Below the pieces are notes generated by a model that saw nothing but the letters and a program-made list of their open reading frames with translations, ran no database searches and had not been told where the DNA came from. From a virus, in IMG/VR virus record IMGVR_UViG_3300030108_001243, positions 1 to 24,491 of that record: DNA of 24,491 bases; one strand, 5' to 3'. A program made the position numbers and the translations under genes. Positions 2,235-24,112 of the stretch are shown here, piece by piece. Each line of letters starts with the position of its first letter. The first letter of the stretch is position 1.

Positions 2235-2726
2235 ATGGCAACCTCAAATGCAGCAACCACTTATTTAGAGCATAGGATACTTAATTTTATATTTAATAAT
2301 AACGCACAAGTATCCAGTGCCAACTTTGGTAGTGGTAATTCAAACGGATTAGGAAGTAATATATATGTTGGATTGGCTACGGCTGTTTCAAACTTTGATG
2401 ATAGCACAGGTGAGTCGGCAGATGCAGGTTCTGTATCGGTTACAGAAGCAACATTTGGTGGATACGCAAGAGTACAAACTACTGCTTGGACACTAGTATC
2501 GCCTACAGCAAATCAACAAACTGCAAAGAATACAAATGCAATTGATTTTGCAGCTAAGACAGATAGTGGAACGCAAACAATAACTCATGTATTTATTAAT
2601 GATAGTTCCAGCTCTAGTGGCAATAATAACTTTTTGTTTATTGGAGCGTTAGATGCAAGTAAGACATTAGCAGAAGGTGACATATTTAGAATAAACGCAA
2701 CAAACTTAAGTATAGAGTTGAAGTAA
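2235..2726 (+). CDS. Gp80-like tail fibre/tail-tip protein
   Basis: This 163-residue protein resembles the Gp80-type phage tail fibre family. It has an N-terminal 'TTYLEHRILNFIF' helix, then I-Y-V-G-L-A-T-A (about residues 43-50), a G-G-Y-A-R-V motif (74-79), a beta segment T-Q-T-I-T-H-V-F-I-N-D (112-122), and G-A-L-D...A-E-G-D-I-F-R-I (136-152). In that family this layout of helix, YVGLxTA, GYxR, TITHxxI and ALxxxKxxxxGDxxxI is repeated closely. A clear AGGAGA ribosome binding site sits 7-8 bases before the ATG. It is the first gene of the fibre island and is joined by TAATG to the long fibre at 2726. It probably forms a small trimeric tip or a fibre-attachment protein. The exact role is not known. 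Confidence 0.55.
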   Translation: MATSNAATTYLEHRILNFIFNNNAQVSSANFGSGNSNGLGSNIYVGLATAVSNFDDSTGESADAGSVSVTEATFGGYARVQTTAWTLVSPTANQQTAKNTNAIDFAAKTDSGTQTITHVFINDSSSSSGNNNFLFIGALDASKTLAEGDIFRINATNLSIELK

Positions 2727-4954
2727 TGGCTTTAGTAATAAAAGATAGAGTAAAAGAAACCACAACTACTACAGGTACTGGAACATTTAACTTAGCTGGT
2801 GCAGTAAGTGGTTTTGAAGGTTTTATTCAAGTTGGTGATGGCAACACTGTTTATTATGTTTGCACAGACAATACAAGTTTTGAAATTGGTATAGGAACAT
2901 TTACTGATGCATCACCAGACACTCTTTCAAGAGATACAATACTACAGGCTAAAGACGTTCCAAATGGCACGACAGATCAAAAAGTAGATTGGGGTTCTGG
3001 AACAAGAACAATATTCTGTACTTACCCTGCTGATAAAGCAGTGTTTAAAGATGCAAGTAATAATATAAACGGCACATTTGTAGGTAATATTACAGGAGAT
3101 GTCACGGGCAACGCTGATACTGCTACTACTTTAGAAACAGCTAGGGAAATTAACGGAACAAGTTTTAATGGAGGTGCAAATATAACTGTAACTGCTGCGG
3201 CAGGAACACTAACTGGTAATACACTTAACTCAGGGGTGACAGCATCTAGTTTAACTAGTCTTGGAACATTAGCTAGTAATTTAAACTTAGGTGGTCAAGA
3301 CATTGTAACTACAACATCTAATCAAGATATTGATCTTCAAACACATGGAACTGGTGTGGTAGTTATAAAAGGAAACAATGATGACAGTGGAAGTAATGTG
3401 GGTGCTATAAAATTTAATTGTGAAGTAAACTCACATGGTCAAATATTAAAGGCTGCTCCACATTCAGCTAGTGCTGATAATGTGTTAATATTACCTCAAG
3501 GTCAAAATGACAGTTCACCACAAGAATTAGTTGCTGTAGATATAACACAAACTCTTACAAACAAAACATTAACTTCACCAAAAATAAATGAAGACGTTGC
3601 TGTAACATCGACAGCAACAGAGTTGAATATACTAGATGGAGTTACTTCAACTACAGCAGAGTTGAATATACTAGATGGCGTAACTGCAACGGCATCAGAG
3701 CTTAACATCTTAGACGGAAAAAGTTTTGTAGACGAAGATAACATGGCGAGTGACAGTGCTACAGCGATTGCGTCACAACAGTCAATTAAGGCTTATGTTG
3801 ATGCTCAAAAAGCTGATATGCAGTTTGTTTTAGAAGATGGTGATGGTACAGAAGTACAGATTACAAAAGACAAAGAAGTTAAATTTGTAGAAGGTGGTGG
3901 TTTAGATATAAATTGGACAGACACCTCTACTGGTTCAGATGCCGATCCATATGATTTAACATTTACTGTAAACGCATCACAAACTGGTATTACATCACTT
4001 ACCAATGCAAGTTTAGTAATAGGTCGTGATGCTGACAATGATATAGACTTTAGCACAGATAATCAAATTACATTTAGGGCAAATGGTGCAGACCAGATAA
4101 AACTTACCGATGGTGCTTTAGTTCCTGTTACAAATAATGATGTAGATTTAGGTACTTCTAGTTTAGAATTTAAAGATGCTTTTTTTGACGGAACAGTAAC
4201 TGCTGATGCTTTTGCTGGGCCTTTGACAGGTAATGCAGATACAGCAACTAAAGTTTATGTTGATGAATCAGAAGATGATAATGCTGCTTACAACATAGCA
4301 TTTTTAGACACAGTTGAAGGAGGTAATGGTTTTAGAACCATGCAGGTGGACAACACAGGTCTTACTTTTAATCCAGGTACTAATACTTTAGCTGTTACCA
4401 ATACATCAACAACTCTTGCAACAGCTGCACAACCTAATATTACATCATTAGGAACTCTTACTACACTTACAGTTGATAACGTAATTGTTAATGGCACAAC
4501 AATAGGACACACAGATGACACTGATCTAATGACAGTTGCAGATGGTGTATTGACAGTTGCTGGTGAAGTATCAATGACCACTTTAGATATAGGTGGAACA
4601 AATGTTACAGCTACAGCAACAGAGTTGAACATAATGGATGGTGTTACAGCGACCACATCAGAATTAAATATAATGGATGGTGTAACCTCTACAACATCAG
4701 AACTAAATATTCTTGACGGAGTCACAGCTACAGCATCAGAATTAAATATAATGGATGGAGTGACTTCCACAACAGCAGAACTTAACATTCTTGATGGTGT
4801 TACAGCAACAGCTTCTGAACTTAATATTATGGATGGCGTTACAGCAACTACGGCAGAATTAAATCATTCTGATGGTGTAACATCTAATATTCAAACACAA
4901 CTAGATGCCAAAGCAACAAAAGGGTTCGTTACAGCTATGGCTATAGCGTTGTAA
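2726..4954 (+). CDS. Long tail fibre protein with ELNxxDGVT tandem repeats
   Basis: This 742-residue fibre protein is low in cysteine and tryptophan and rich in T, A, N, D and G, as beta-helical phage shafts are. The N-terminal domain (about 1-95) has the marine-fibre pattern with F-I-Q-V-G-D-G and L-S-R-D-T-I-L. The shaft follows with typical phage fibre motifs: G-N-I-T-G-D-V-T-G-N-A-D-T-A-T (about 121-135), L-T-N-K-T-L-T-S-P (about 275-283) and L-T-G-N-A-D-T-A-T-K-V-Y-V-D-E-S (about 503-518). There are two blocks of the 13-residue repeat T-x-x-E-L-N-I-(L/M)-D-G-V-T-x, three copies near 296-334 and seven copies near 630-721. It ends abruptly with V-T-A-M-A-I-A-L, without a receptor-tip domain like those in the neighbouring genes. 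It may therefore act as a shaft or connector to which the following small proteins attach (inference). Confidence 0.72.
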   Translation: MALVIKDRVKETTTTTGTGTFNLAGAVSGFEGFIQVGDGNTVYYVCTDNTSFEIGIGTFTDASPDTLSRDTILQAKDVPNGTTDQKVDWGSGTRTIFCTYPADKAVFKDASNNINGTFVGNITGDVTGNADTATTLETAREINGTSFNGGANITVTAAAGTLTGNTLNSGVTASSLTSLGTLASNLNLGGQDIVTTTSNQDIDLQTHGTGVVVIKGNNDDSGSNVGAIKFNCEVNSHGQILKAAPHSASADNVLILPQGQNDSSPQELVAVDITQTLTNKTLTSPKINEDVAVTSTATELNILDGVTSTTAELNILDGVTATASELNILDGKSFVDEDNMASDSATAIASQQSIKAYVDAQKADMQFVLEDGDGTEVQITKDKEVKFVEGGGLDINWTDTSTGSDADPYDLTFTVNASQTGITSLTNASLVIGRDADNDIDFSTDNQITFRANGADQIKLTDGALVPVTNNDVDLGTSSLEFKDAFFDGTVTADAFAGPLTGNADTATKVYVDESEDDNAAYNIAFLDTVEGGNGFRTMQVDNTGLTFNPGTNTLAVTNTSTTLATAAQPNITSLGTLTTLTVDNVIVNGTTIGHTDDTDLMTVADGVLTVAGEVSMTTLDIGGTNVTATATELNIMDGVTATTSELNIMDGVTSTTSELNILDGVTATASELNIMDGVTSTTAELNILDGVTATASELNIMDGVTATTAELNHSDGVTSNIQTQLDAKATKGFVTAMAIAL
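3611..3727 (+). repeat. 39-bp tandem repeats, block 1 (3 copies)
   Basis: Three in-frame 39-bp units encode 13-residue repeats with E-L-N-I-L-D-G. The Glu codons start at 3620, 3659 and 3698. The third copy ends in D-G-K instead of D-G-V-T. Nucleotide identity between units is partial, with differences mostly at synonymous positions. Confidence 0.85.
4613..4891 (+). repeat. 39-bp tandem repeats, block 2 (7 copies)
   Basis: Seven consecutive 39-bp units encode T-(A/T)-(T/S/A)-E-L-N-I-(L/M)-D-G-V-T-x. The Glu codons start at 4622, 4661, 4700, 4739, 4778, 4817 and 4856. The last unit is degenerate (E-L-N-H-S-D-G). The units alternate between the T-A-S/T-T-S/T-T-A and the ILDG/IMDG forms, which suggests past duplication of more than one unit at a time. 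Protein repeats of this type are common in marine phage fibres. Confidence 0.88.
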
Positions 4955-4967
4955 ATAGGAGAATATA

Positions 4968-5294
4968 ATGGCACAAGATTTTGAACGAAATACTGCAAAT
5001 AGTGTAGGAACAAGTGCATCAACTTTGAGAACAGCAAATTCTGATGATGCGATTGTAGGAATAACAATTGCTAATATAACATCAAGTCAAATTGCAGTAG
5101 AAGTGTATATCAATGACGGATCGAATGATATACACATTGTGAAGGATGCACCTATCCCAGCAGGTTCAAGTTTACAGGTTTTAGATGGTGGAGCTAAAAT
5201 AGTTATGGTGGATGGTGATGCACTTAAAGTTAAAAGTGATACTGCCAGTTCAGCAGATGTTTGGGTTTCGGTTGTTGATGCAATTAGTACATAG
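4968..5294 (+). CDS. Small virion structural protein
   Basis: This 108-residue protein is predicted to be all beta. Its pattern is S-T-L-R-T-A...I-V-G-I-T-I-A-N, then a V-E-V-Y-I strand, D-A-P-I-P-A-G-S-S-L-Q-V-L, and G-D-A-L-K-V-K-S...V-W-V-S-V. I recall small proteins of this type ('IPAGSSLxxLxG...xxGDxLxV') near fibre genes in marine phages and cyanophages. The protein at 14586-14930 follows the same order of motifs (I-S-A-K-A-T-V-E-L-L...I-L-K-A), so the window has two members. It has an AGGAG ribosome binding site a few bases before the ATG. A decoration, tail-knob or fibre-base role is possible but not shown. Confidence 0.55.
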   Translation: MAQDFERNTANSVGTSASTLRTANSDDAIVGITIANITSSQIAVEVYINDGSNDIHIVKDAPIPAGSSLQVLDGGAKIVMVDGDALKVKSDTASSADVWVSVVDAIST

Positions 5295-5302
5295 GAAATA
5301 AT

Positions 5303-6151
5303 ATGCCGTATTTAGGTAACGCTCCCACAGCAAACTTTGCATCTGTAACAAAGGATACATTTAGTGGTGATGCTAGTGAAACTGCTTTTACTTTATCTCA
5401 AACAGCAACGACAAATGGTGTAGCCGTTTATGTTGAGAACGTAAGACAGATACCAACAACAGCCTATGCAGTCAGTGGTACTACATTGACGTTTACTGGT
5501 GCTCCTCCAAGTGGCACGAATAACATTTATGTAATGCACCACAACACACCAGTAAGCACAGCAACACATCCTGCTGCACAAGACTTGACTGCTACAAATG
5601 CTAATTTTACTGGAAATGTAACTGGTGCTGGTATGGATCATCTTTTTTCAGCAACTATAAGCAGTGCTGTTTCTGCTTATGATATAGATTCTACATACAT
5701 CAATTCAACCCATGATAATTATTTAATACAAGCAGAGTTTCTTCCAGCAACGGATAACGTTTATTTATATCTTCAGGTATTTGTAGGTGGATCAGTACAA
5801 ACAGGTAGTTCTTATTATGGAAGAACAACAGCTAATTTAGATGCTTCTCTTTATTCAAATGATAACTCTGATACTATACTCACTAGAACTAATTACTACT
5901 CAAATGGTAATGCCACAGGTGAAGGGATTACTATTAACGCAAATTTACAAAATGTAAATAACACAGCAAGACCATGTTGTATTAATGGTATTGAAAATAA
6001 TTTTAGTACAAGTGGTAATCATAGTGCTTCAACTTTTACTGGTAGTATAAATTCAGCTAATGCTTCTGATGTTGTAAATGGTATAAGATTTTATATGAGT
6101 AGTGGAGACATTGCATCAGGAACAGTTAAACTTTATGGGCTTAAAGACTAA
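5303..6151 (+). CDS. Receptor-binding tail fibre, tip type A with anchor
   Basis: This 282-residue fibre starts with the anchor domain M-P-Y-L-G-N-A-P...T-F-S-G-D-A-S-E-T-A-F-T-L-S (1-32). A V-A-V-Y-V-E-N-V-R-Q-I-P segment and L-T-F-T-G-A-P-P-S-G-T-N-N-I-Y-V follow. This pattern is widespread at the N-terminus of podovirus and marine fibres and serves to attach the fibre to the tail. A short collagen-like linker 'NANFTGNVTGAG' leads into a C-terminal receptor-tip domain (about 110-282) that ends G-I-R-F-Y-M-S-S-G-D-I-A-S-G-T-V-K-L-Y-G. The tip is paralogous to the whole protein at 8012-8614. Its dedicated chaperone is probably the next gene, joined by TAATG. It has an AGGAAA-type ribosome binding site. 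Confidence 0.65.
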   Translation: MPYLGNAPTANFASVTKDTFSGDASETAFTLSQTATTNGVAVYVENVRQIPTTAYAVSGTTLTFTGAPPSGTNNIYVMHHNTPVSTATHPAAQDLTATNANFTGNVTGAGMDHLFSATISSAVSAYDIDSTYINSTHDNYLIQAEFLPATDNVYLYLQVFVGGSVQTGSSYYGRTTANLDASLYSNDNSDTILTRTNYYSNGNATGEGITINANLQNVNNTARPCCINGIENNFSTSGNHSASTFTGSINSANASDVVNGIRFYMSSGDIASGTVKLYGLKD

Positions 6152-6432
6152 TGAAAAAAATGGTTAATAACATAATAGTAGAAATGACTTCAGAAGAAGT
6201 TAAAGCAAGAGAAACCGAAGAGAAGGCTTGGGCTGATGGTGCTACTGAGCGTAAAAAAGATAAGTTAAGAGATACTAGAAAACCATTGTTAGAAGAAGCT
6301 GACCATAAAATAAATACACTTACAGATAGTGGTGGTGATGCAACTGCATGGCGAAAATACAGGCAAGATTTAAGAGACATTACTAAAGCATCTGACCTGG
6401 ATAACGTAACATTTCCAACGAAACCGAGTTAA
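6151..6432 (+). CDS. Tail fibre assembly chaperone (Phage_tail_APC-like), copy 1
   Basis: This 93-residue protein has the layout of phage tail assembly chaperones of the APC/DUF4376 kind. It has an N-terminal 'M-K-K-M-V-N-N-I-I-V-E-M-T-S-E-E' strand and helix, a central charged helix with R-D-T-R-K-P-L-L-E-E-A-D, then W-R-K-Y-R-Q-D-L-R-D-I-T (70-81) and a terminal N-V-T-F-P-T-K-P-S. The W-xx-YRQxLRDI...PxxP ending is the family signature. Such proteins help fold or trimerise the fibre tip encoded just upstream. The start overlaps the stop of that fibre gene as TAATG. The last 26 bp are identical to the end of the paralogue at 8611-8895. Confidence 0.72.
   Translation: MKKMVNNIIVEMTSEEVKARETEEKAWADGATERKKDKLRDTRKPLLEEADHKINTLTDSGGDATAWRKYRQDLRDITKASDLDNVTFPTKPS
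6407..6432 (+). repeat. 26-bp direct repeat at chaperone gene end (copy 1)
   Basis: The last 26 bases of the first chaperone gene, including its TAA stop, are identical to 8870-8895 at the end of the second. Identity stops at the stop codon and one base upstream of the stretch. The rest of the two genes is clearly diverged. Confidence 0.85.
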
Positions 6433-6442
6433 GGAGTAATAA

Positions 6443-7672
6443 ATGCCCTACATAGGAAGATCAACAGACGGATTTGGAGTAAGGAATAGGTTCTTATTTG
6501 TTGCTTCTGCTAATGACACATCTGTATCAGGAGCAGATGCCAATGGAGCTACTCTAACCTTTACAGATGGTGCATATGTTGATGTATATCTTAATGGTGT
6601 CTTGCTCAAAGCAGGAACGGATTATAATACAAACACAGCTAATACTATAGCAGGTCTATCAGCGTTATCTGCAAATGATGAAGTGACTGTTATTGTGTTT
6701 GATGTATTTACTGTTGCCGACATGGTAAGTGCTACAACTGGTGGTACGTTTAGTGGAGATATAATTTTATCTTCTACAGATGCTGGTGCAAGTTCAGCAC
6801 CTAATTTAACCTTTAATCGAAATTCATCTAGTCCAGCAACAGATGATGTTATGGGTAAAATAAGTTTTAAAGGTAAAAATGATGCAGATGAAGAAATAGA
6901 ATATGGCAATATTGAAGCTGTTATAGCCGATGAAACAGATGGAACTGAAGATGGTAAAATTCAAATTGGTATAATGAGAAATGGTACTGTGCAAACTCGT
7001 TTTGCTATGGCTGGAAATTCTGATACAAAGTTTTTTAATAGAAATGTACAATTGTCCAGTGTAGATTTTAAAGCTAGAGGAAATGAGATTTTTTTAGATT
7101 CTGACGATGATACATCTATAACAGCAGACACTGATGATAGAATAGATTTTAAAACAGGTGGTACTGATAGACTTCAAATACAAAGCACCTCTGGTAATAA
7201 TGTTGTTATTGCAGATGGTCTAACACTTACTGATGGCAATCTTATTTTAGCAAGTGGTCATGGAATAGATTTTAGTGCTGAAACTAATTCTGCAAGTGGT
7301 TCTGCATCTGCATTATTAGACGACTATGAAGAAGGTACGTTTACTGCCGCATTTACTAACTTTTCTGGTAGTGCAACATTTAGTAATGCTGTTTATGTAA
7401 AGATTGGACAAATGGTATTTTTTACTCTTCATATAACTGGTAAAAGTAATACAAGTGATGGAGATCAAATGACAGTTAGTGGATTTCCTTTTGCTGTATT
7501 AGGGGAACATCCAGCTAGTGTGGGTATGAATGATAATGAATTTGGTCACGCAATGGTAAATACAGCAGAATATTTGTATTTTTATAATTTAACTGGTGGC
7601 CCATTTACTTACGATATGTTTCCACACACAAGTGGATATGCACGAATACAAGGTGCTTACAGAATAGCTTAA
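6443..7672 (+). CDS. Tail fibre protein with EEGTFT-type head
   Basis: This 409-residue fibre has an N-terminal anchor 'MPYIGRSTDGFGVRNRF' followed by V-D-V-Y-L-N-G-V-L-L-K-A-G-T-D-Y (46-61). That layout is common in cyanophage and pelagiphage fibres. Residues 119-200 form a shaft module with L-T-F-N-R-N...G-K-I-S-F-K-G...I-E-A-V-I-A-D-E-T-D-G-T-E-D-G, which recurs in altered form twice in the fibre at 9889. Residues about 217-282 have Asp-rich beta repeats. A L-L-D-D-Y-E-E-G-T-F-T motif (291-301) then opens the C-terminal head (about 300-409), which presumably meets the receptor. It has a good GGAG ribosome binding site and is followed after ten bases by a small companion gene. Confidence 0.68.
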   Translation: MPYIGRSTDGFGVRNRFLFVASANDTSVSGADANGATLTFTDGAYVDVYLNGVLLKAGTDYNTNTANTIAGLSALSANDEVTVIVFDVFTVADMVSATTGGTFSGDIILSSTDAGASSAPNLTFNRNSSSPATDDVMGKISFKGKNDADEEIEYGNIEAVIADETDGTEDGKIQIGIMRNGTVQTRFAMAGNSDTKFFNRNVQLSSVDFKARGNEIFLDSDDDTSITADTDDRIDFKTGGTDRLQIQSTSGNNVVIADGLTLTDGNLILASGHGIDFSAETNSASGSASALLDDYEEGTFTAAFTNFSGSATFSNAVYVKIGQMVFFTLHITGKSNTSDGDQMTVSGFPFAVLGEHPASVGMNDNEFGHAMVNTAEYLYFYNLTGGPFTYDMFPHTSGYARIQGAYRIA

Positions 7673-7682
7673 TGGAGAAAAT

Positions 7683-8012
7683 ATGGCACAAGGCGATATA
7701 ACAAAAGAAATAGAATATGATAAAATTGAGGTAGTTAATACATGGGCAATACAAGTTCGTAAAGCTACTAAAATTATGGAAGAACAGGCTGATGGTTCAA
7801 AGAAAGAACTAACTCGTTCATTTCATCGTCATGTAGTAAACCCATTTAATTCAGTTGCTAACATAGACAGTGATGGAAAAATTACAGGGTGGACACATAC
7901 AGCTACAGATATAAGTGGTGAAGACGCTTCAGTACAGGCGATAGCTAATGCAGCTTGGACTGATACAGTTAAAAATAACTATAAAGCATATAGAGAAAGT
8001 CAGAGCAGTTAA
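7683..8012 (+). CDS. Small fibre-associated protein of unknown function
   Basis: This 109-residue protein begins with D-I-T-K-E-I-E-Y-D-K-I-E-V-V-N-T-W-A-I-Q-V-R-K-A-T. A beta segment containing 'RSFHRHVVNPF' follows, then W-T-H-T-A-T-D-I-S-G-E-D-A-S-V-Q-A-I (70-87) and a C-terminal helix with W-T-D-T-V-K-N-N-Y-K. I recall the ISGED...W-T-D-x-V-K-x-x-Y pattern from small proteins encoded between fibre genes of marine phages, without a known function. It follows the fibre at 6443 with a GGAG ribosome binding site and overlaps the next fibre gene by TAATG. A chaperone or fibre-base role is likely from its position only. Confidence 0.5.
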   Translation: MAQGDITKEIEYDKIEVVNTWAIQVRKATKIMEEQADGSKKELTRSFHRHVVNPFNSVANIDSDGKITGWTHTATDISGEDASVQAIANAAWTDTVKNNYKAYRESQSS

Positions 8013-8614
8013 TGAGCAACGCACGAAACCTTGCCAATCTTTCCACCACATTTGGAATGGTTCATCTTAACACAACTACAGTTTCTTCTGCTGTAGCAAA
8101 TGTAACTTTTAGTTCGTCTTTAATTACTGATACATACATGGACTATAGAGTTGTTTTGAGATTTGTTGCTGGTGCAACAAATGGACAAGCTCTTTTTGTT
8201 TTCCCATCAGATGACAATGGTTCAACTTACGATATACTTATTGAACAAGCGATGCAGTATCATGACACTAAAACAAGTGCAGCAGGAATTGCTGGAACAA
8301 ATGGGAATAGTGATGCTAAAATACAAATAGGTGCTGGTACAGAAAATACTGCAAATAAAGGTTTAAGTGCAGACTTGATGTTTATTGGATTAAGGCAGAC
8401 TACTGGCTTTAAAGCAATGTATTATAATGCTCATAATGCACACGATAATGATGGTGGTCATAATACTGGTAATGATTACTGGTGGAATGGTGGTTCAAAA
8501 ATTATAGGCACATCAAATTCAAATAGAGAATCAATAAATCATTTAAAATTTCAATTTGCAAGTGGTAATGTTGCACAAGGAACATTTAGTTTATATGGGA
8601 TAAAATCAGCATGA
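8012..8614 (+). CDS. Receptor-binding fibre tip protein, paralogue of the 5303 tip
   Basis: This 200-residue protein starts with a very short anchor 'MSNARNLANLSTTFG', used by many phage receptor-binding proteins. The rest is the receptor-tip domain also found at about residues 110-282 of the 5303-6151 protein. The strand order is alike (S-S-A-V-A-N-V-T-F versus S-S-A-V-S-A-Y-D-I), and both end in the (F/Y)-x-x-(A/S)-S-G-(N/D)-(V/I)-A-(Q/S)-G-T-x-x-L-Y-G-(I/L)-K pattern. Here the tip is attached to a different anchor. The gene overlaps its chaperone gene at 8611 by ATGA. The middle (residues about 60-150) differs strongly from the paralogue, as expected for a surface that binds different receptors. 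Confidence 0.66.
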   Translation: MSNARNLANLSTTFGMVHLNTTTVSSAVANVTFSSSLITDTYMDYRVVLRFVAGATNGQALFVFPSDDNGSTYDILIEQAMQYHDTKTSAAGIAGTNGNSDAKIQIGAGTENTANKGLSADLMFIGLRQTTGFKAMYYNAHNAHDNDGGHNTGNDYWWNGGSKIIGTSNSNRESINHLKFQFASGNVAQGTFSLYGIKSA

Positions 8615-8895
8615 AAAAATTAGTTGATGGCGTTGAAATTGAAATGACAGATGCAGAGATTGCATTAAAACAAGCAGAAGATAAAGCAAATCTAGAAGGA
8701 ACATTAGTACAAAGAATGGCTCTTCTTAGAAACAAAAGAGATATTTTATTAGCCGAAACAGATTGGATGGGTAATTCTGATGTTACCATGAGTAATGATT
8801 GGAAAACATATAGACAAGCATTGAGAGATATTACTAAAACAGAACCAGTTGACATGGCTTTAAGCAATATAACATTTCCAACGAAACCGAGTTAA
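8611..8895 (+). CDS. Tail fibre assembly chaperone (Phage_tail_APC-like), copy 2
   Basis: This 94-residue protein is a paralogue of the 6151-6432 product. It begins M-K-K-L-V-D-G-V-E-I-E-M-T-D-A-E-I. The central helix carries R-D-I-L-L-A-E-T-D-W, the tryptophan form typical of APC chaperones, followed by W-K-T-Y-R-Q-A-L-R-D-I-T and N-I-T-F-P-T-K-P-S. This copy is closer to the family consensus than copy 1, which has lost the D-W motif. It overlaps the preceding fibre tip by four bases (ATGA), so the two are probably translated together. Each chaperone copy directly follows a fibre with the same tip type, which supports a one-to-one pairing. Confidence 0.75.
   Translation: MKKLVDGVEIEMTDAEIALKQAEDKANLEGTLVQRMALLRNKRDILLAETDWMGNSDVTMSNDWKTYRQALRDITKTEPVDMALSNITFPTKPS
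8870..8895 (+). repeat. 26-bp direct repeat at chaperone gene end (copy 2)
   Basis: This is identical to 6407-6432, in the same frame and position at the end of the paralogous gene. The encoded peptide is T-F-P-T-K-P-S with its flanking residue. Confidence 0.85.
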
Positions 8896-8916
8896 TAATA
8901 AAGTGAGTAACTTATA

Positions 8917-9399
8917 ATGGCAATAACAAAAATAGGAAGAAATGCTGTAGAGTCTATTAATTCTCCTGCTGTACACGCAATTAGCAGTAGTAATCAAAGT
9001 CTCTCTGCTACTACTTTTACAACTGTTACTTTAGCAGATGAAGATTTAGATACAGAAAGTGATTTTTCTAGTAATACTTTTACTCCTCCTGAAGCAGGGA
9101 CTTATTTAATATTAGGTTCAATAGGACTTGAATGTGATAATGCAGGCGATTTAACGGCAGGTTATATTAGATTAACAAAAACAAGCAGTCACACACCTTT
9201 ACCTGGATCAACTCATGGAATATCATCTCCTCATACTGACAATGCTACTTTTACAGTTTTAGGTCTGTCAACATCATGGGTAGGAACACTTGCAACAAGT
9301 GATATTATTCGTATGCAGGCATACGCAAATTGGGGTGGTGGTAGTACAAATGTTCAAACAACCTATTCTGCCATGTCAGTTATAAAGTTGGCAACATAA
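8917..9399 (+). CDS. C1q/TNF-like receptor-binding head protein
   Basis: This 160-residue protein has a jelly-roll pattern like the C1q-like heads of phage receptor-binding proteins. It shows S-S-N-Q-S-L-S-A-T-T-F-T-T-V-T-L-A-D-E-D-L-D-T-E-S-D-F, then F-T-P-P-E-A-G-T-Y-L-I-L-G-S-I (54-68), and late strands with I-I-R-M-Q-A-Y and Y-S-A-M-S-V-I-K-L. The FxxxxxGxYxxxxxxxF pattern after a long Asp/Glu-rich loop is characteristic. The N-terminus (about 1-20, with I-T-K-I-G) is too short to be a full anchor, so it probably attaches to another fibre component. No strong ribosome binding site is seen; GTGAG lies 10-15 bases upstream. It is likely a trimeric head that contacts the host surface. Confidence 0.6.
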   Translation: MAITKIGRNAVESINSPAVHAISSSNQSLSATTFTTVTLADEDLDTESDFSSNTFTPPEAGTYLILGSIGLECDNAGDLTAGYIRLTKTSSHTPLPGSTHGISSPHTDNATFTVLGLSTSWVGTLATSDIIRMQAYANWGGGSTNVQTTYSAMSVIKLAT

Positions 9400-9402
9400 A
9401 TC

Positions 9403-9879
9403 ATGCTAGGCTTTAGTGCTTTATCAGAAAACCCTATTAGTAGTGTTAATAAGGTACTAGAACTTTCTGCATCAATGACGGCTTTAGCCGTATCGTCTTC
9501 TGCTGCGGCTGGTACGCTTGTTGGTGCAGCAAGTTTATCATCTTCATCAATACAGACAACAGCTGGAGTTAGGATACTTGTTCATAGTGCAAGTCTTGAA
9601 TCATCATCCGTAGCATCCTCTGCTGCTGTGTTTATAAAAGGATCAACATTACAAACGAATTTAGTATCGTCCTCTGTGCAAACAACAACTGGTGTTCGTA
9701 CTTTAGTTGGCACATCAACACAAGATTTAAACTTCACACAAACAACAACGGGTGAATTATTATTTACAGAAATCGTACCAAGTGTTAATGTCACTTATAC
9801 AGAAATCACACATACTGGTGATAATTGGACAGAAATTACACATACAGGTGACAACTGGACAGATGTAAATACAGGTTAG
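9403..9879 (+). CDS. Repetitive Ser/Thr-rich structural protein
   Basis: This 158-residue protein has low complexity (Ser, Thr, Ala and Val). It starts M-L-G-F-S-A-L-S-E-N-P-I-S-S, a start I recall from small proteins of marine phages with 'FSALAExPI'. It then has imperfect repeats around Q-T-T-A-G-V-R-I-L-V (51-60) and Q-T-T-T-G-V-R-T-L-V (93-102). The C-terminus repeats T-E-I-T-H-T-G-D-N-W twice in tandem (133-152), then a partial third copy T-D-V-N-T-G. The start is three bases after the previous stop. The repeats suggest an elongated or multi-site structural part, perhaps between fibre subunits. The function is unknown. Confidence 0.5.
   Translation: MLGFSALSENPISSVNKVLELSASMTALAVSSSAAAGTLVGAASLSSSSIQTTAGVRILVHSASLESSSVASSAAVFIKGSTLQTNLVSSSVQTTTGVRTLVGTSTQDLNFTQTTTGELLFTEIVPSVNVTYTEITHTGDNWTEITHTGDNWTDVNTG
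9799..9858 (+). repeat. 30-bp tandem repeat (2 copies plus partial) encoding TEITHTGDNW
   Basis: Two 30-bp units encode the identical decapeptide T-E-I-T-H-T-G-D-N-W. They differ only at synonymous positions (for example ATC/ATT and GAT/GAC), so the repeat is kept at protein level. A degenerate third copy follows. Confidence 0.85.
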
Positions 9880-9888
9880 GAGTTATAA

Positions 9889-11550
9889 ATGGCTAGTTCA
9901 TACACATCAAATAATCGTATAGAAAAGATTGGTACAGGCGAACAAGCAGGTACTTGGGGATCAACGACCAATACAAATTTTGATATTATTGATAAAGCTA
10001 TAAATGGAGTTGGTTCAATTACATTGTCTGGAGTAGAAGATGATTTAACAACTTCTGATGGAGATAAAGATTCTAGTGGTCTTTTTAAAGTTTTAAAATT
10101 AGGTGGATCACCAAGTGGCAGTCATAAATTAAGGATAAGACCTAATAGTGTACAAAAACTTTATTTTGTTGCAAATTCATCTGGTCAAACTGTTGAAATT
10201 GGTCAAATAGACGACAATGCTAACTTTAGCACAAGCACAAATTCTGTGAGCGTTGCAGATGGTAAAACAGCTATAATTTATGCTGATGGAGGGGGTGCTA
10301 CTGCCGCAAAAGTTAGATCAATAGAAACTGGATCAGATGAATTTACAGAAGATGTAACTATTAAAACAGATGATGGTGCACTGTTAACTTTGCAGACACG
10401 TGATACAACTGTTACAGATGGTGATGTTCTTGGAGCTTTACAGTTTCAAGCACCAGATGATACAGATGGTAAAACTGGCGATGCTGATGGATCAAAAGTT
10501 ACAGCATCTATTGTAGGTGAAGCAGATGCAACTTTTAATGCAGATACTAATTCTACTGACTTAGTATTTAAATTAGCAACAGATGGTGATGCAGCAGAAA
10601 AAATGAGACTAACACATGAGGGTGATTTAAATCTTATTACAGATGGTAAATCAATCAACTTTGGTGCTGACAGTGAAATACAGTTAACACATCATGCAGA
10701 TACAGGTTTAAAAATAAAACATACTGCTACAGCAGATGACAAACCTGTCATTCTTACATTGCAAACAGGTGAACAAGATATTCAAAATGGAGATGTATTA
10801 GGAGCAATAGAATTTCAAGCACCAGACGAAGGAACAGGAACAGATGCTCAAGTTTCTGCTGGAAGAATAGAGGTTCAATCAGAAGGTGATTTTTCTGCAA
10901 CAAACAACGCAGCTATGATTGTATTTAAAACTGGTGAAGATGGTACAAATGCAGGAACACCTTTAGAAAGATTTAGAATTGAATCATCTGGTTCTTGTGG
11001 CATTGCCGCGGACGGAAGCACCACCACAAATCATTTAAGAGTTGGTGCAAGTTCAGATTTACTTCTTTTCCACGAAAGCGATATAAATAAAATTGTATCA
11101 GGTTCAGGCAACCACCCAATAGCCATACAAAGTAACTCAGGAGAGTACATGGCTAATTTTGGTGTTAATGGTGCAGTTACTTTATATCATGATAATGTTT
11201 CTACACTTGAAACTAGCTCAACTGGCATAAGCATAACAGGAAACCTTTCTGTTAGTGGTGCAATTGTTGCTAATGGTGACGTTACAGCTTTTTCAGATGA
11301 AAGACTAAAGTCTGACGTTAAAACAATAGATAACGCTTTAGACAAAGTTATGAATATGCGTGGTGTGTCTTATACAAAACAAGCTGAAAAAGGTATCGGT
11401 GTTATTGCACAAGAGGTAGAAAAAATTATACCAGAAGTTGTGACAGATGGTGAATATAAATCTGTAGCATATGGAAACATAGTTGGTGTTCTTATTGAAG
11501 CAATTAAAGAACAACAAAAACAAATTGATGAATTAAAGAAAGATAAGTAA
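9889..11550 (+). CDS. Tail fibre/spike with C-terminal S74 intramolecular chaperone
   Basis: This 553-residue fibre has an anchor domain 'NNRIEKIGTGEQAGTWG' (about 8-24) of a type common in phage fibres. The shaft has two related modules starting at about residues 165 and 288: L-T-L-Q-T...G-D-V-L-G-A-(L/I)-x-F-Q-A-P-D. The C-terminus is an S74 peptidase/chaperone domain. It has S469-D-E-R-L-K474, the Ser-Lys catalytic dyad motif, then G-V-I-A-Q-E-V-E-K-I-I-P-E-V-V and a terminal helix ending in K-E-Q-Q-K-Q-I-D-E-L-K. In this family the domain trimerises the fibre and then cuts itself off just before or at the serine. About 84 residues would be lost here. The catalytic motif is intact. An AGGAG ribosome binding site precedes the start. 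Confidence 0.82.
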   Translation: MASSYTSNNRIEKIGTGEQAGTWGSTTNTNFDIIDKAINGVGSITLSGVEDDLTTSDGDKDSSGLFKVLKLGGSPSGSHKLRIRPNSVQKLYFVANSSGQTVEIGQIDDNANFSTSTNSVSVADGKTAIIYADGGGATAAKVRSIETGSDEFTEDVTIKTDDGALLTLQTRDTTVTDGDVLGALQFQAPDDTDGKTGDADGSKVTASIVGEADATFNADTNSTDLVFKLATDGDAAEKMRLTHEGDLNLITDGKSINFGADSEIQLTHHADTGLKIKHTATADDKPVILTLQTGEQDIQNGDVLGAIEFQAPDEGTGTDAQVSAGRIEVQSEGDFSATNNAAMIVFKTGEDGTNAGTPLERFRIESSGSCGIAADGSTTTNHLRVGASSDLLLFHESDINKIVSGSGNHPIAIQSNSGEYMANFGVNGAVTLYHDNVSTLETSSTGISITGNLSVSGAIVANGDVTAFSDERLKSDVKTIDNALDKVMNMRGVSYTKQAEKGIGVIAQEVEKIIPEVVTDGEYKSVAYGNIVGVLIEAIKEQQKQIDELKKDK

Positions 11551-11552
11551 GC

Positions 11553-12296
11553 ATGGCTTTACCAGCTAGTGGAAATTCAATAAGCATGGATCAGATGCGA
11601 ACAGAGTTTGGCATATCTGGTTCTATATCAATGAGTCAATTGTATAGAGGTGGTAGTGAAGTTCCTGCAAATGGCACTGTAAGTGGCAGTATTGCTAGTT
11701 TAACAGGTAGTCAAAATGGTTATGGTGGAAGCAGTCAACCAATTTTAAATCATTATTATGCTGTTGCATCTAGGTTTACAGGAAATATGACCTGTGGAAA
11801 TAACGGAGATGTTACAGCAGATGGTGATATTACTTTTACCACAACTGCCGTAGCATCAGGTGATAATGGTGAAAATATGGCATTTATAAACTCAGGACAA
11901 GTAAACACTGGTGGAGTTAGAATAGCAACAACAGACGCATCAGCAGATTCAAATAATCTTCAAAATGGAATTTTAAATACTGGAACAAGTCCGATAGTAT
12001 TTAAGTCTTTTTCTGGATCACAAACTGCTGCCTCTCTTACTGGTGGAACATATGTAACAACTATACCTAATGGCACATCATTTGATATACCTTTAGGAGT
12101 AACTTCATTTAAAATGTTTAGTCATGCTTCTGGCAGAAAAAGAATGACAGGTGGTAATGATGGCTCTGTTACCATAACTATAGGAAATGGTTCTGGTAAT
12201 TATACTTCTACTGGTACTATAAACACTGGTGTTCCTGATGGCAGTTCTGGAAATGAAACAATAAAGTTTTCAGATTTATTTGGAGCTACTGCATAA
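11553..12296 (+). CDS. Tail fibre-like structural protein (MALPxSGxISM type)
   Basis: This 247-residue protein begins M-A-L-P-A-S-G-N-S-I-S-M-D-Q-M-R-T-E-F-G-I-S-G-S-I-S-M-S-Q-L-Y-R-G-G-S (1-35). I recall the pattern M-x-L-P-x-S-G-x-I-S-M-x-Q-I-x-x-E-L-G at the start of many cyanophage and marine phage fibres and tail proteins. The rest is Gly-, Ser-, Thr- and Asn-rich with alternating beta patterns (such as 'GDITFTTTAVASGDNG') and ends with S-D-L-F-G-A. The start follows the previous stop by two bases, and the stop overlaps the nozzle gene as TAATG. It has no recognisable receptor-tip signature shared with the other fibres, so its contact partner is unknown. Confidence 0.58.
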   Translation: MALPASGNSISMDQMRTEFGISGSISMSQLYRGGSEVPANGTVSGSIASLTGSQNGYGGSSQPILNHYYAVASRFTGNMTCGNNGDVTADGDITFTTTAVASGDNGENMAFINSGQVNTGGVRIATTDASADSNNLQNGILNTGTSPIVFKSFSGSQTAASLTGGTYVTTIPNGTSFDIPLGVTSFKMFSHASGRKRMTGGNDGSVTITIGNGSGNYTSTGTINTGVPDGSSGNETIKFSDLFGATA

Positions 12297-14428
12297 TGCC
12301 ATTAACCAAGCTACAATTCAAACCAGGAATCAACAGAGAAGTAACTCCCTATAGTAATGAAGGTGGTTGGGTTGACTGTGATAAAATACGTTTTCGTTTC
12401 GGTTATGCAGAAAAATTTGGTGGTTGGGAAAAATTAACAACAAGCACTTACGAAGGCACAGCAAGACGTTTACATAATTGGTTGGCACTTGATGGATCAA
12501 ATTATCTTGGTGTAGGTACACATCTTAAATACTACATTGAAGAGGGTGGTTTATTTAATGATATAACGCCTATTCGTAAATCTACAACAAATTCTACAAC
12601 ATTTGCAGCTACAAACGGCTCTGCAAACATAACTGTTACAGAAAATAATCATGGTGCAGCAGAAAATGATTTTGTTACATTTAGTGGTGCGGCAACTTTA
12701 GGTGGTCTTATAACAGCCACAATACTTAACGCTGAACATAAAATAGTAAATATAATAAATGGAAACTCTTATACAATAACAGTTAGTTCTGCTGCTAATG
12801 CATCTGATACGGGCGATGGTGGAGGTGGAACTGATGCTGTATATTTAATAAATGCAGGTCTTGACTCACAAGTTGGTGGTACGGGTTGGGGTGCTGGACT
12901 GTTTGGTGGTACAACTGCTAATGCTGTTACTACAACTATAGCTGAACCACTAAATGCTGAATTTAGTAATTCAGATACTACTTTAACTGTTGCTAATTCA
13001 AATCCTGGTCATCAAATAGCAGCAGATGATTTTATTTTAATTGAAGAAGAAATTTTAAAAGTAACTAATGTTTCTTCAAATGATTTAACAGTTGTAAGAG
13101 CACAAAGTGGAACATCAGCTTCTGCTCACGCACATGGAACAAATGTTCGGCTTTCTGTAGGTAATTCTTTATCATCAGATGATTTTACTGGTTGGGGTAT
13201 AGCAGCAGAAAGTGGAACAACTCGTGAAATACGAACATGGTCACATGATAATTTTGGAGAAGATTTATTTATAAATCCTAGAGATGAAGCTGTGTATCGT
13301 TGGGATAAAACAAATGGTTTAACTACGAGAGCAGTAGAAATTAGCACTATCTCTGGTGCAGAAAATGCTCCTACTGTAGCAAAACAAATTATGGTTGATG
13401 AAAATCACTTGATAGCTTTTGGTACGAATATTTATGGAACATCAACTCAAGATCCATTGTTGATTAGATTTTCTGATGATGAAAATCAGTTGTTATTTAC
13501 AGTTCGCTCTGGATCAGCAGCTAATTTTTTAACAATAGGTTCAGGTTCAGAATTTGTTCAAGCAATTAAAACAAAACGTGAAATACTTGTTTGGACTGAT
13601 ATTTCTTTACATAGTTTAAGGTATATTGGTTATCCTCTTTATTATGGCATTGATCAAATAACATCAAGCATAACAATTATGGGTCCTAAAGCTGCTGTTG
13701 CAGTAGAAGATGCCGTATTTTGGATGGGTAAAGATAATTTTTATGTGTATGCTGGTGGCACAAAAACTCTGCCTTGCACTGTTAAAGACAAAGTGTTTCT
13801 TGATTTTAATAATGAACAAGCAGACAAAGTTGTTGCAGGCGTTAATTCTGAGTACACAGAGGTTATATGGTTTTATCCATCTGAATCAAATTCATTAAGT
13901 AATGGTGGTACAGGAGATATAGATAAATATGTTATATATAACTATGGACAAGGAATATGGTATTTTGGAACATTAGCAAGAACAGCATGGATAGACAGAG
14001 GTATACGTCAATTTCCTATAGCTGCAGGCTCACCTAATTTATTTAACCATGAAACAGGTTTTGATGATGATGGCTCTGCTATGACATCATTTATTGAGTC
14101 TGCACCAATGGACATAGGAGATGGTGATAAATTTACTCTTGTTCAAAAAGTCATACCTGACTTGACTTTTGATGGATCAACATCTCAAAGTGCTCCAGCG
14201 GCTAATTTTACTTTAAAAGCTCGTAATGAACCTGGTGAAAATTATAGCAATACATCTGCTGGAACTGCTACAAGAACATCTACATCACCTGTTGAAACTT
14301 TTACTAATCAATTAAATTTAAGAGCGAGAGGTCGTTCTTTTGCTTTACGTGTTGACTCTGACGCACTTGGTGTTAAATGGAGATTAGGATCACCAAGAGT
14401 TAGTATTAGACCTGATGGGAGAAGATAA
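12296..14428 (+). CDS. Nozzle/tail-tube-B-like protein (P22 gp10 / T7 gp12 type)
   Basis: This 710-residue protein starts M-P-L-T-K-L-Q-F-K-P-G-I-N-R-E-V-T-P-Y and then G-G-W-V-D-C-D-K-I-R-F-R-F-G. I recognise this start from a conserved marine podovirus tail protein related to the P22 gp10 and T7 gp12 nozzles that close the tail. Two beta domains are inserted in the N-terminal third. One spans residues 105-177 and is shared with the protein at 866-1369. The other (about 220-285) has I-L-I-E-E-E-I-L-K-V-T-N-V...L-T-V-V-R-A-Q-S-G-T. The later part has propeller-like segments (such as 'DNFYVYAGG' and 'VIYNYGQGIWYFG'). It is separated from the adaptors by the fibre island. The assignment rests on pattern and gene order. 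Confidence 0.62.
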   Translation: MPLTKLQFKPGINREVTPYSNEGGWVDCDKIRFRFGYAEKFGGWEKLTTSTYEGTARRLHNWLALDGSNYLGVGTHLKYYIEEGGLFNDITPIRKSTTNSTTFAATNGSANITVTENNHGAAENDFVTFSGAATLGGLITATILNAEHKIVNIINGNSYTITVSSAANASDTGDGGGGTDAVYLINAGLDSQVGGTGWGAGLFGGTTANAVTTTIAEPLNAEFSNSDTTLTVANSNPGHQIAADDFILIEEEILKVTNVSSNDLTVVRAQSGTSASAHAHGTNVRLSVGNSLSSDDFTGWGIAAESGTTREIRTWSHDNFGEDLFINPRDEAVYRWDKTNGLTTRAVEISTISGAENAPTVAKQIMVDENHLIAFGTNIYGTSTQDPLLIRFSDDENQLLFTVRSGSAANFLTIGSGSEFVQAIKTKREILVWTDISLHSLRYIGYPLYYGIDQITSSITIMGPKAAVAVEDAVFWMGKDNFYVYAGGTKTLPCTVKDKVFLDFNNEQADKVVAGVNSEYTEVIWFYPSESNSLSNGGTGDIDKYVIYNYGQGIWYFGTLARTAWIDRGIRQFPIAAGSPNLFNHETGFDDDGSAMTSFIESAPMDIGDGDKFTLVQKVIPDLTFDGSTSQSAPAANFTLKARNEPGENYSNTSAGTATRTSTSPVETFTNQLNLRARGRSFALRVDSDALGVKWRLGSPRVSIRPDGRR

Positions 14429-22829: not shown

Positions 22830-23252
22830 ATGTCAAAAGTAGAATACATTGAAAAGTTTAATCTTGCTGAAACACAAGCACGATTAAATGAAAATCTTAA
22901 AAAGGCTCAGAAAGATTTACAAGACTTTAATAAGTATCTTGAAGAGCGTTATACACAACGGGCACAACAAGTTCTAAATGATAGCGGTAAAGACTTTGGT
23001 ACTGCTAATCTTTTAGAGGGTAATACGCAGGTCAAAGTAGAGTTGCGTAAAAAGGTAGCTTGGGATCAAGAGGGCTTAATAAAGTATCTTAATACTTTAA
23101 AGCCTGAAGATGCAGATCACTTATCTAAGGTATCTGTTACCGTGCCTGAGTCAAAATATTCTAATGCTTTACCTGCTATTCAGCACGAACTTAAAAAGTT
23201 CCGTACTGTTTCGTTGCAGGGTGTAAAAGTTACATTCGAGGGAGAAGAATAA
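22830..23252 (+). CDS. 140-residue early protein of unknown function
   Basis: This protein uses the ATG at 22830, preceded by GAGGTG at six to seven bases. An in-frame ATG at 22818 overlaps that ribosome binding site and is less likely. Residues about 10-55 form a long charged helix, likely a coiled coil (with 'ARLNENLKKAQKDLQDF'). The C-terminal half has W-D-Q-E-G-L-I-K-Y-L and a terminal V-S-L-Q-G-V-K-V-T-F-E-G-E-E. I do not recognise a catalytic motif. It is the first gene after the putative promoter and is joined by TAATG to the ATPase gene, so it probably works in DNA replication or recombination, perhaps as an adaptor for the ATPase. Confidence 0.6.
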   Translation: MSKVEYIEKFNLAETQARLNENLKKAQKDLQDFNKYLEERYTQRAQQVLNDSGKDFGTANLLEGNTQVKVELRKKVAWDQEGLIKYLNTLKPEDADHLSKVSVTVPESKYSNALPAIQHELKKFRTVSLQGVKVTFEGEE

Positions 23253-24112
23253 TGTTAAAAATAATATCAGCCGACGAAAGAATGGCAGAAGAAAGAGGTC
23301 ATAAAATCGTTATTGGTGGACCAAGTGGTGTCGGTAAGACTAGCTTGGTTCGCACAATGGACTCAGAAAAAACTTTGTTTATGGATTTAGAAGCAGGAGA
23401 TGCCGCAATACAAGGGTGGCCTATAGATGTTATCCGCCCTAGAACATGGCAAGAATGTCGTGATTTTGCCTGTTATATTGGTGGTAGCAATCCTGCTTTG
23501 AATGATGATCAAGTCTATTCTAAAGCACACTATGAGCAACTCTGCAAAGAAAAGGGCAATCCGCAAGAATGGTTGGCAAAATATGACAGTATATTTATTG
23601 ATAGTATTACTGTAGCAGGTAGGTTGTGTTTTCAATGGTGTCAAAGTCAACCCGATTGCAAAACTTCTAACGGCAGGCTCGATACTCGAGCCGCCTACGG
23701 TATGCAGGGTCGTGAAATGATGGCTTGGCTAACGCATTTGCAACATATTAGAGATAAGAATGTTGTATTTGTTGGTATATTAGATAGTCGCACAGACGAC
23801 TACGGTAGACCAATACATGATTTACAAATAGAAGGCTCTAAGACGGGTCGTGAACTACCAGGGATTGTGGACGAAGTTATTACTATGGCAATAATGCCAG
23901 GTGATGAAAACACTCCACCATACCGTGCGTTTGTATGTCATACTCTAAACGAATGGAATTATCCTGCAAAGGATAGATCGGGTTGTTTAGATTTGTTAGA
24001 ACCACCTCACTTAGGTAATCTGTTAAAAAAGATGTCAGGTAACACTAAGGCAGAGGATCGTTTGTTAACTTTTAGTTTATTAAATAAAAATAATGGAGAG
24101 GTAAATGCTTAA
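23252..24112 (+). CDS. AAA_24/Sak4-like phage ATPase
   Basis: This is a 286-residue P-loop ATPase. Walker A is G-G-P-S-G-V-G-K-T-S (22-31), and Walker B is Y-D-S-I-F-I-D-S (111-118). V-V-F-V-G-I-L-D-S-R (171-180) is a later core strand, and G-R-E-L-P-G-I-V-D-E-V (199-209) is typical of the phage nucleotide-binding AAA_24 family. That family is related to RecA and includes the Sak4-like single-strand annealing proteins that work with phage SSB proteins in recombination. The following gene encodes an SSB-like accessory protein, which supports this reading. It overlaps its neighbours by TAATG upstream and by eight bases downstream. The exact activity (annealing or helicase loading) is not shown. 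Confidence 0.78.
   Translation: MLKIISADERMAEERGHKIVIGGPSGVGKTSLVRTMDSEKTLFMDLEAGDAAIQGWPIDVIRPRTWQECRDFACYIGGSNPALNDDQVYSKAHYEQLCKEKGNPQEWLAKYDSIFIDSITVAGRLCFQWCQSQPDCKTSNGRLDTRAAYGMQGREMMAWLTHLQHIRDKNVVFVGILDSRTDDYGRPIHDLQIEGSKTGRELPGIVDEVITMAIMPGDENTPPYRAFVCHTLNEWNYPAKDRSGCLDLLEPPHLGNLLKKMSGNTKAEDRLLTFSLLNKNNGEVNA

Follow-up and report, generated by a model that had tools for sequence, protein, structure and literature searches.

Nucleotides 1-24491 of the IMG/VR virus record IMGVR_UViG_3300030108_001243 (the window; the record has 27,265 bases and is probably a fragment) contain a fibre region, spanning 2726-11550, in which two units, A and B, each consist of a fibre tip and a small APC-type chaperone. 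We propose, with a probability of about 0.7, that these units are host-recognition cassettes that circulate interchangeably among marine phages, with junctions at the linker in front of the tip and at the 3' end of the chaperone gene. Mosaic junctions are observed in related loci, as are three cassettes in one slot and the reuse of cassette B with numerous anchors and numerous next genes. The phage looks like an uncultivated marine podovirus-like relative, because the protein encoded at 12296-14428, which matches a protein annotated "stabilization protein" in several phages, is 29-31% identical to those of Pelagibacter phages HTVC023P and HTVC027P.

The slot framed by the anchor at 5303 and the gene at 6443 holds tip A with chaperone A in the window and in related loci L343, L259 and L272, tip B with chaperone B in L012 and L013, and in L258 a third pair, whose tip is distantly related to tip B and whose chaperone ends in FPKKPS. 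One slot is thus loaded with three different cassettes. An earlier note on this DNA had suggested searching relatives for junctions at a 26-bp sequence with which both chaperone genes end, and L012 and L258 supply them. In 60-bp bins, window and L012 are 78-98% identical over 4968-5628, 40-53% over 5628-6107 and 40-75% up to 6407, and identity then recovers to 93% in the bin that opens at 6408, at the start of the 26 bp; L258 has the same right border, at 90%. L343, whose cassette is that of the window, is evenly similar (77-98%) across 5328-6760. The left border falls at the FTGNVTG linker, and nucleotide homology to tip A starts at 5606 in L001, L011 and L136, whose anchor is a different one.

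The same modules recur in other surroundings. Tip A is also found on a second anchor type (L273, L244 and L246), while the 5303-type anchor carries other tips in L012 and L258. The homology of tip B begins at ~8047-8069 in relatives with other anchors, and at least six anchors bear tip B together with chaperone B (window, L077/L060/L112, L005, L012, L002/L006 and L157), that of L157 being a shaft of ~800 residues. Downstream, the 10 instances of chaperone B are followed by eight nucleotide-level clusters, three of which look, by eye, like one protein family; in L049 and L060 a 9403-type gene lies directly 3' of chaperone B, where the window has the gene at 8917-9399 in between. One module is therefore found in several surroundings, and one set of surroundings can hold several modules. 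These sequence comparisons support the view of the cassettes as units that are exchangeable and sit on different anchors, with a right junction at the chaperone 3' end, which agrees with the earlier note's description of a swap cassette.

Each tip gene is followed directly by its chaperone gene, at 6151 and at 8611, the stop of the tip overlapping the start of the chaperone (TAATG, 6149-6153, in A; ATGA, 8611-8614, in B), and both chaperones score above the curated PF16778 cut-off of 26.6 bits (whole-protein scores 31.1 for A and 45.1 for B). Translation of the 5303 and 8012 genes gives the C-terminal tip ends SGDIASGTVKLYG and SGNVAQGTFSLYG, and the tips are preceded by ~103 residues in A and 18 in B. 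The earlier note had thus correctly described a common SG(N/D)xAxGTxxLYG ending, an APC-type chaperone proper to each tip, and different N-terminal anchors. The two tips are 26% identical over 196 residues by BLASTP (E 3e-6), give a profile-profile probability of 99.8 (E 4e-28) and both match phrog_14820 (A 3e-4, B 1e-6), a family without an assigned function; the matches indicate that they are remote homologues belonging to one superfamily. AlphaFold predicts both to be all beta, tip A as a beta-sandwich (mean pLDDT 93.2, and 84.6 for tip B). Foldseek returned no confident match for tip A (best E 2.5e-4, TM 0.20) or tip B (best E 1.4e-3). A second structure comparison related the model of tip A to glycosidase/galectin beta-sandwich domains with Z up to 7.5, which the tool grades as middling, and this is only a hint that the tips may be lectin-like domains. 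Tip B had no match among 50,697 phage records, and none in cultured phages.

In types A and B, tip and chaperone may travel together. Chaperone A is present in 7/7 tip A rows at ≥62%, and type B chaperones come after tip B relatives. Among 41 non-redundant LYG-ended tips, similarity of the tips was correlated with that of their chaperones (Mantel p 0.003), with a rho of 0.57 for the first 35 chaperone residues and of 0.40 for the last 60 (Mantel p 0.003 each); that the tips are tied more closely to the first 30 chaperone residues than to later parts was marginal (bootstrap fraction at or below zero, 0.04 and 0.08).

The right junction was mapped in a survey of the chaperone family, which yielded at least 209 distinct instances, 193 with enough flank, and, after further scans, 215 instances for use, of which 138 end FPTKPS. 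The downstream 250 nt were shared in 168 and not shared in 219 of 387 pairs with similar chaperone bodies, and were shared in 147 of 17,424 pairs with dissimilar bodies. For 76 cluster combinations with a common chaperone body, homology stopped at most 48 nt past the stop codon in 50 and extended at least 200 nt in 18; for 94 combinations with a common downstream gene, leftward homology ended at most 60 nt from the stop in 42 and ran for at least 400 nt in 25. Breaks thus do gather near the repeats, as the earlier note's proposal requires of relatives, but homology alone cannot place them inside the 26 bp.

The 26-mer itself, TAACATTTCCAACGAAACCGAGTTAA, occurs exactly twice in the window, at 6407-6432 and 8870-8895, both on the plus strand, with 0 copies expected from 100 dinucleotide shuffles. 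As the earlier note stated, the chaperone genes are exactly alike in these last 26 bp and diverged elsewhere, with 41% identity between the two chaperones over 97 columns. A 21-mer scan of viral contigs returned 14 stretches, 14/14 of them at chaperone 3' ends, and we therefore rejected a free-standing DNA element; an RNA function was rejected on folding z-scores of -0.03 and 0.74. No terminator was found at the 26-bp site, and the chaperone-end site is marked by neither terminator, RNA fold nor inverted repeat. Among the matches listed in a degenerate scan, 132 FPTKPS-stop sites comprised 44 codon versions, and FPTKPS-stop is evidently a terminus under strong protein constraint. The earlier note had allowed that such constraint might explain the 26 bp, which prove less special than it had claimed. 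The last 21 nt are identical in 1.4%, and the last 24 nt in 0.3%, of 8589 pairs of dissimilar chaperones; type A and type B pairs share 21 nt in 21/80 and 24 nt in 3/80. At the codon that reads ACT or ACC in the other seven A rows, the A end of the window reads ACA; the B end of the window has ACG, against ACT in the near relatives L077 and L005. Each end is one or two substitutions from its relatives. The exact 26-bp identity is therefore accounted for by a common end altered at one or two positions, with no signature of conversion.

The choice of codons at this end is associated with the gene that follows. Dissimilar chaperones before the same downstream gene agree in 5.35/7 last codons (45 combinations, 44 of which exceed the codon-usage expectation, mean 3.12), compared with 3.76/7 before different downstream genes (2848 combinations) and 3.96/7 for two chaperones of one record (13 combinations). 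Because two scans had selected loci by their end codons, which biased the Ser and stop codons, five unconstrained codons were also compared separately; agreement was 3.49 in the same slot, 2.76 in different slots and 3.08 in the same record (same versus different slot, p 1e-6). Free shuffling of ends gave p 0.0005. The Thr codon ACG accompanies a 6443-type neighbour in 13/19 cases versus 11/119 otherwise, in 9/15 versus 7/115 when type A is excluded, and in 7/12 versus 9/73 when one instance is counted per combination (p 0.001). In the slot designated DOWN 4, the 21-mer TTCCCAACAAAACCTTCATAG is present in 6/9 instances across five chaperone clusters, and the other chaperone of the same record has a different end. 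The last codons thus partly follow the downstream gene, which is what a crossover edge would predict, but the signal is moderate.

A related observation concerns records with two chaperones whose ends differ (L042, L046, L070, L093, L109, L118 and L031). The sequence (TTC or TTT)CCAACAAAACCTTCATAG is found there in the chaperone 5' of the ATGGCAAGTATATTAAAA gene, on several different bodies, and is a slot-specific end.

Several results weigh against the proposed reading. Control pairs, with neither body nor downstream gene in common, have a matching end of 12-36 nt in 222/400 and of less than 60 nt in 350/400. These matching ends arise because the terminal peptide is conserved, and homology alone therefore puts the junction at the chaperone end, not inside the 26 bp. 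Agreement in the five codons did not differ significantly between same slot and same record (p 0.11). When ends were permuted within loose chaperone clusters p was 0.039, and permutation within tight clusters, the strictest form, gave no signal (p 0.85). The three type B cases of ACG with a 6443-type neighbour are one clade in the type B chaperone tree (10 rows of 261-267 nt, FastTree, midpoint root, several weak nodes of 0.24-0.75), and thus represent one or two events, not three. Joint transfer of tip and chaperone also has exceptions. No chaperone was detected adjoining the tip B relatives L337-L340, L286 and L290, and the 28 instances of chaperone cluster 40 have 2 downstream versus 22 upstream clusters. 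These cluster 40 chaperones (including those of L055, L063, L093 and L118) are long, ~140-150 residues, with a constant downstream gene and varying fibre ends upstream; here the tip is apparently swapped over a fixed chaperone, the opposite linkage to types A and B, and the co-transfer rule is therefore not general. The earlier note's view of the 26 bp as a recombination edge is accordingly upheld in part, by the association of end codons with the downstream gene, and weakened by the constrained peptide, by the identity of ends in only 1/16 same-record pairs and by the negative outcome of the strictest permutation. That the chaperone end is used in exchange is likely, though not proven.

In one respect the earlier note did not hold: it had called the cassette duplicated. 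Chaperone A has relatives at 90-95% identity in eight loci and chaperone B at 90-97% in six, and the tip B and chaperone B stretch of the window is 96% identical to L149 and L077 over 847 bp. With the chaperones only 41% identical to each other and at least 90% identical to relatives in other phages, recent duplication was rejected. Since A and B are more like outside relatives than each other, they circulated separately before meeting in one genome, and they are old lineages. Exact identity of 26 bp between two genes of the same genome that lie 2.46 kb apart is what would be expected if a within-genome duplication had diverged while gene conversion held the ends identical, yet the same outside relatives argue against this, as do L005, which has both A and B with differing ends, and the 1/16 same-record pairs with identical 21-nt ends, on which concerted evolution of chaperone ends within a genome was also rejected. 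This history, already disfavoured, is in our judgement very improbable.

Two other explanations merit more weight. The terminal peptide may be an ordinary constrained one, its codon identity coincidental, with cassettes exchanged through crossovers in larger flanking homologies. The frequencies at which 21- and 24-nt ends are shared, both among dissimilar pairs and between types A and B, are consistent with this, and most of 4968-5628 and 6408-6760 is common to the window and L012, a length that would suffice for ordinary homologous exchange; cassette B, however, precedes eight nucleotide-level downstream clusters, and its exchanges therefore have no common long right-hand homology. We regard this explanation as possible, if on the improbable side. 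Illegitimate recombination could alternatively occur anywhere, with selection for intact genes, other junctions being lethal and the 26 bp playing no role. Viable junctions must respect gene borders in any case, chaperones with unrelated neighbours likewise conserve the terminal peptide, control pairs also have 12-36 nt matching ends, and the site lacks a terminator, RNA fold or inverted repeat. What makes this account unlikely is the association of end codon versions with the downstream gene across chaperone bodies, exemplified by the DOWN 4 21-mer in five clusters while the second chaperone of the same record ends differently.

If cassettes are exchanged as we favour, the left junction would lie in the linker that joins the tip to its N-terminal anchor, and the right one would fall where the chaperone gene ends, at most ~40 bases from the stop codon. 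The chaperone would move along with the tip since it must match it. FPTKPS-stop and the next ribosome-binding site could supply short homology for a crossover, at which an annealing recombinase of the phage, for instance the Sak4-like protein encoded at 23252, could act, leaving the genes undamaged; the putative consequence would be a change in the host surface structure bound. The phage also encodes a Holliday junction resolvase-like protein (phrog_190, 5.5e-31). According to the literature, which is drawn on here and below in excerpt, Sak4-type annealing proteins favour the recombination of sequences that are short and divergent (PMC8093625) and have a part in phage mosaicism (PMC5499656). 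Given this published activity, the Sak4-like protein would provide a route for short-homology exchange and is, from its sequence matches, a possible agent of it. A broader and more doubtful picture, which we put forward only tentatively, is that marine phages have several fibre slots, each with a slot-specific edge (the last ~20 bases of the chaperone and the next ribosome-binding site) that docks tip-chaperone cassettes via annealing recombinases, with linker repeats opposite, allowing free recombination of anchors, tips and next genes between phage groups.

An invertible tail-fibre switch of the Mu or P1 type has a serine invertase and alternative fibre ends flanked by inverted repeats, and a diversity-generating retroelement comprises a reverse transcriptase together with its template and variable repeats. 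Both 26-bp copies lie in direct orientation on one strand, and the 10 inverted pairs in 4900-9700 are 14-25 nt long and imperfect (76-89%). A Pfam scan of 27 window proteins found no invertase, integrase or reverse transcriptase families; the cassettes do not fit an invertible switch, and as to the retroelement, in a record that is probably a fragment a reverse transcriptase could lie outside.

The features of the window are collected in Table 1. Cassettes A and B are not neighbours, the fibre gene at 6443-7672 and the small gene at 7683-8012 intervening.

Table 1. Features of the two cassettes, their surroundings and the candidate recombinase (window coordinates).
Feature	Position	Strand	Basis
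Fibre gene A anchor, N-terminal, ~103 residues, MPYLGN-type, leading into the FTGNVTG linker	5303..5611	+	
Tip A, ending SSGDIASGTVKLYGLKD	5606..6151	+	Homology start in relatives; phrog_14820; AlphaFold beta-sandwich
Chaperone A, 93 residues, Phage_tail_APC	6151..6432	+	PF16778 2e-7, 31.1 bits
26-bp candidate edge, copy 1, encoding (V)TFPTKPS-stop	6407..6432	+	
Next fibre gene, with MPYIGRSTDGFGVR anchor; same downstream neighbour in L012 and L258	6443..7672	+	
Small phrog_6228 gene separating both cassettes	7683..8012	+	phrog_6228 3e-16
Fibre gene B anchor, short (MSNARNLANLSTTFGMVH)	8012..8065	+	Homology start of tip B in relatives
Tip B, ending ASGNVAQGTFSLYGIKSA	8066..8614	+	phrog_14820 1e-6; AlphaFold
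Chaperone B, 94 residues, Phage_tail_APC	8611..8895	+	PF16778 9e-12, 45.1 bits
26-bp candidate edge, copy 2, same letters as 6407-6432	8870..8895	+	
Gene immediately 3' of chaperone B	8917..9399	+	
Sak4-like single-strand annealing protein	23252..24112	+	phrog_124 1.5e-44; PF13479 AAA_24 4.8e-41

Elsewhere in the fibre region, 2726-4954 encodes a fibre-like protein of 742 residues with many ELNI(L/M)DGVTAT-type repeats, and 9889-11550 another fibre, which carries a Peptidase_S74 intramolecular chaperone domain; the genome therefore mixes self-chaperoned and partner-chaperoned fibres. Small genes matching phrog_6228 (window 7683-8012, L226:2731-3030 and L278:3626-3988) or phrog_9114 (L253:3668-3997, which also matches XkdW PF09636, and L319:3638-3991) sit between fibre genes or directly 5' of 6443-type anchors, the position that chaperones have elsewhere, and may represent fibre partners of another kind.

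That fibre and chaperone can be exchanged together is already established for syringacins, and the sharing of such pairs is reported for Alteromonas phages. In R-type syringacins the receptor-binding protein and chaperone genes suffice to retarget killing, fibre and chaperone are replaced jointly between conserved flanks as here, and a conserved stretch on one side may be an anchor point for recombination (PMC6331570). Those downstream breakpoints are said to have no consistent position, whereas the present ones cluster at the chaperone 3' end, and the organisms differ; here two such pairs occur in one genome. Alteromonas phages A5, V22 and P24 likewise have a fibre and cognate chaperone common to distant marine phages, although their chaperones have 195-240 residues versus 93-94 here, and the excerpted report describes neither a two-cassette genome nor an edge analysis (PMC10579305). 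In Pam3 gp24-gp25 and Mu Tfa the variable N-terminal part of the chaperone binds the fibre and its conserved helical C-terminal part trimerises (PMC9608196). By analogy, such an architecture would explain the constrained chaperone 3' end, although the present APC proteins are shorter. Pelagiphage metaviromic islands similarly contain variable host-recognition genes, including tail fibre assembly proteins, but were delineated by read recruitment, with junctions and cassettes left undefined (PMC3909814). A chaperone-end junction is not described in the excerpts of PMC10579305, PMC9599517, PMC6331570, PMC3909814, PMC9608196, PMC10684548, PMC5499656 and PMC8093625, and may be published elsewhere.

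The present analysis adds two cassettes of the same superfamily on different anchors in one genome, a slot that accepts three cassettes, and a right junction that gathers at the chaperone end. The three-cassette slot amounts to a set of natural experiments on where fibres can be cut with tip, chaperone and neighbours still working. If the recombinase of the phage does use these edges, this would explain how host recognition is reshuffled in abundant ocean phages, and would make the tip-specificity of the chaperone directly testable with matched versus mismatched pairs. Together, these sequence relationships suggest that related viruses trade host-recognition parts as plug-in cassettes.

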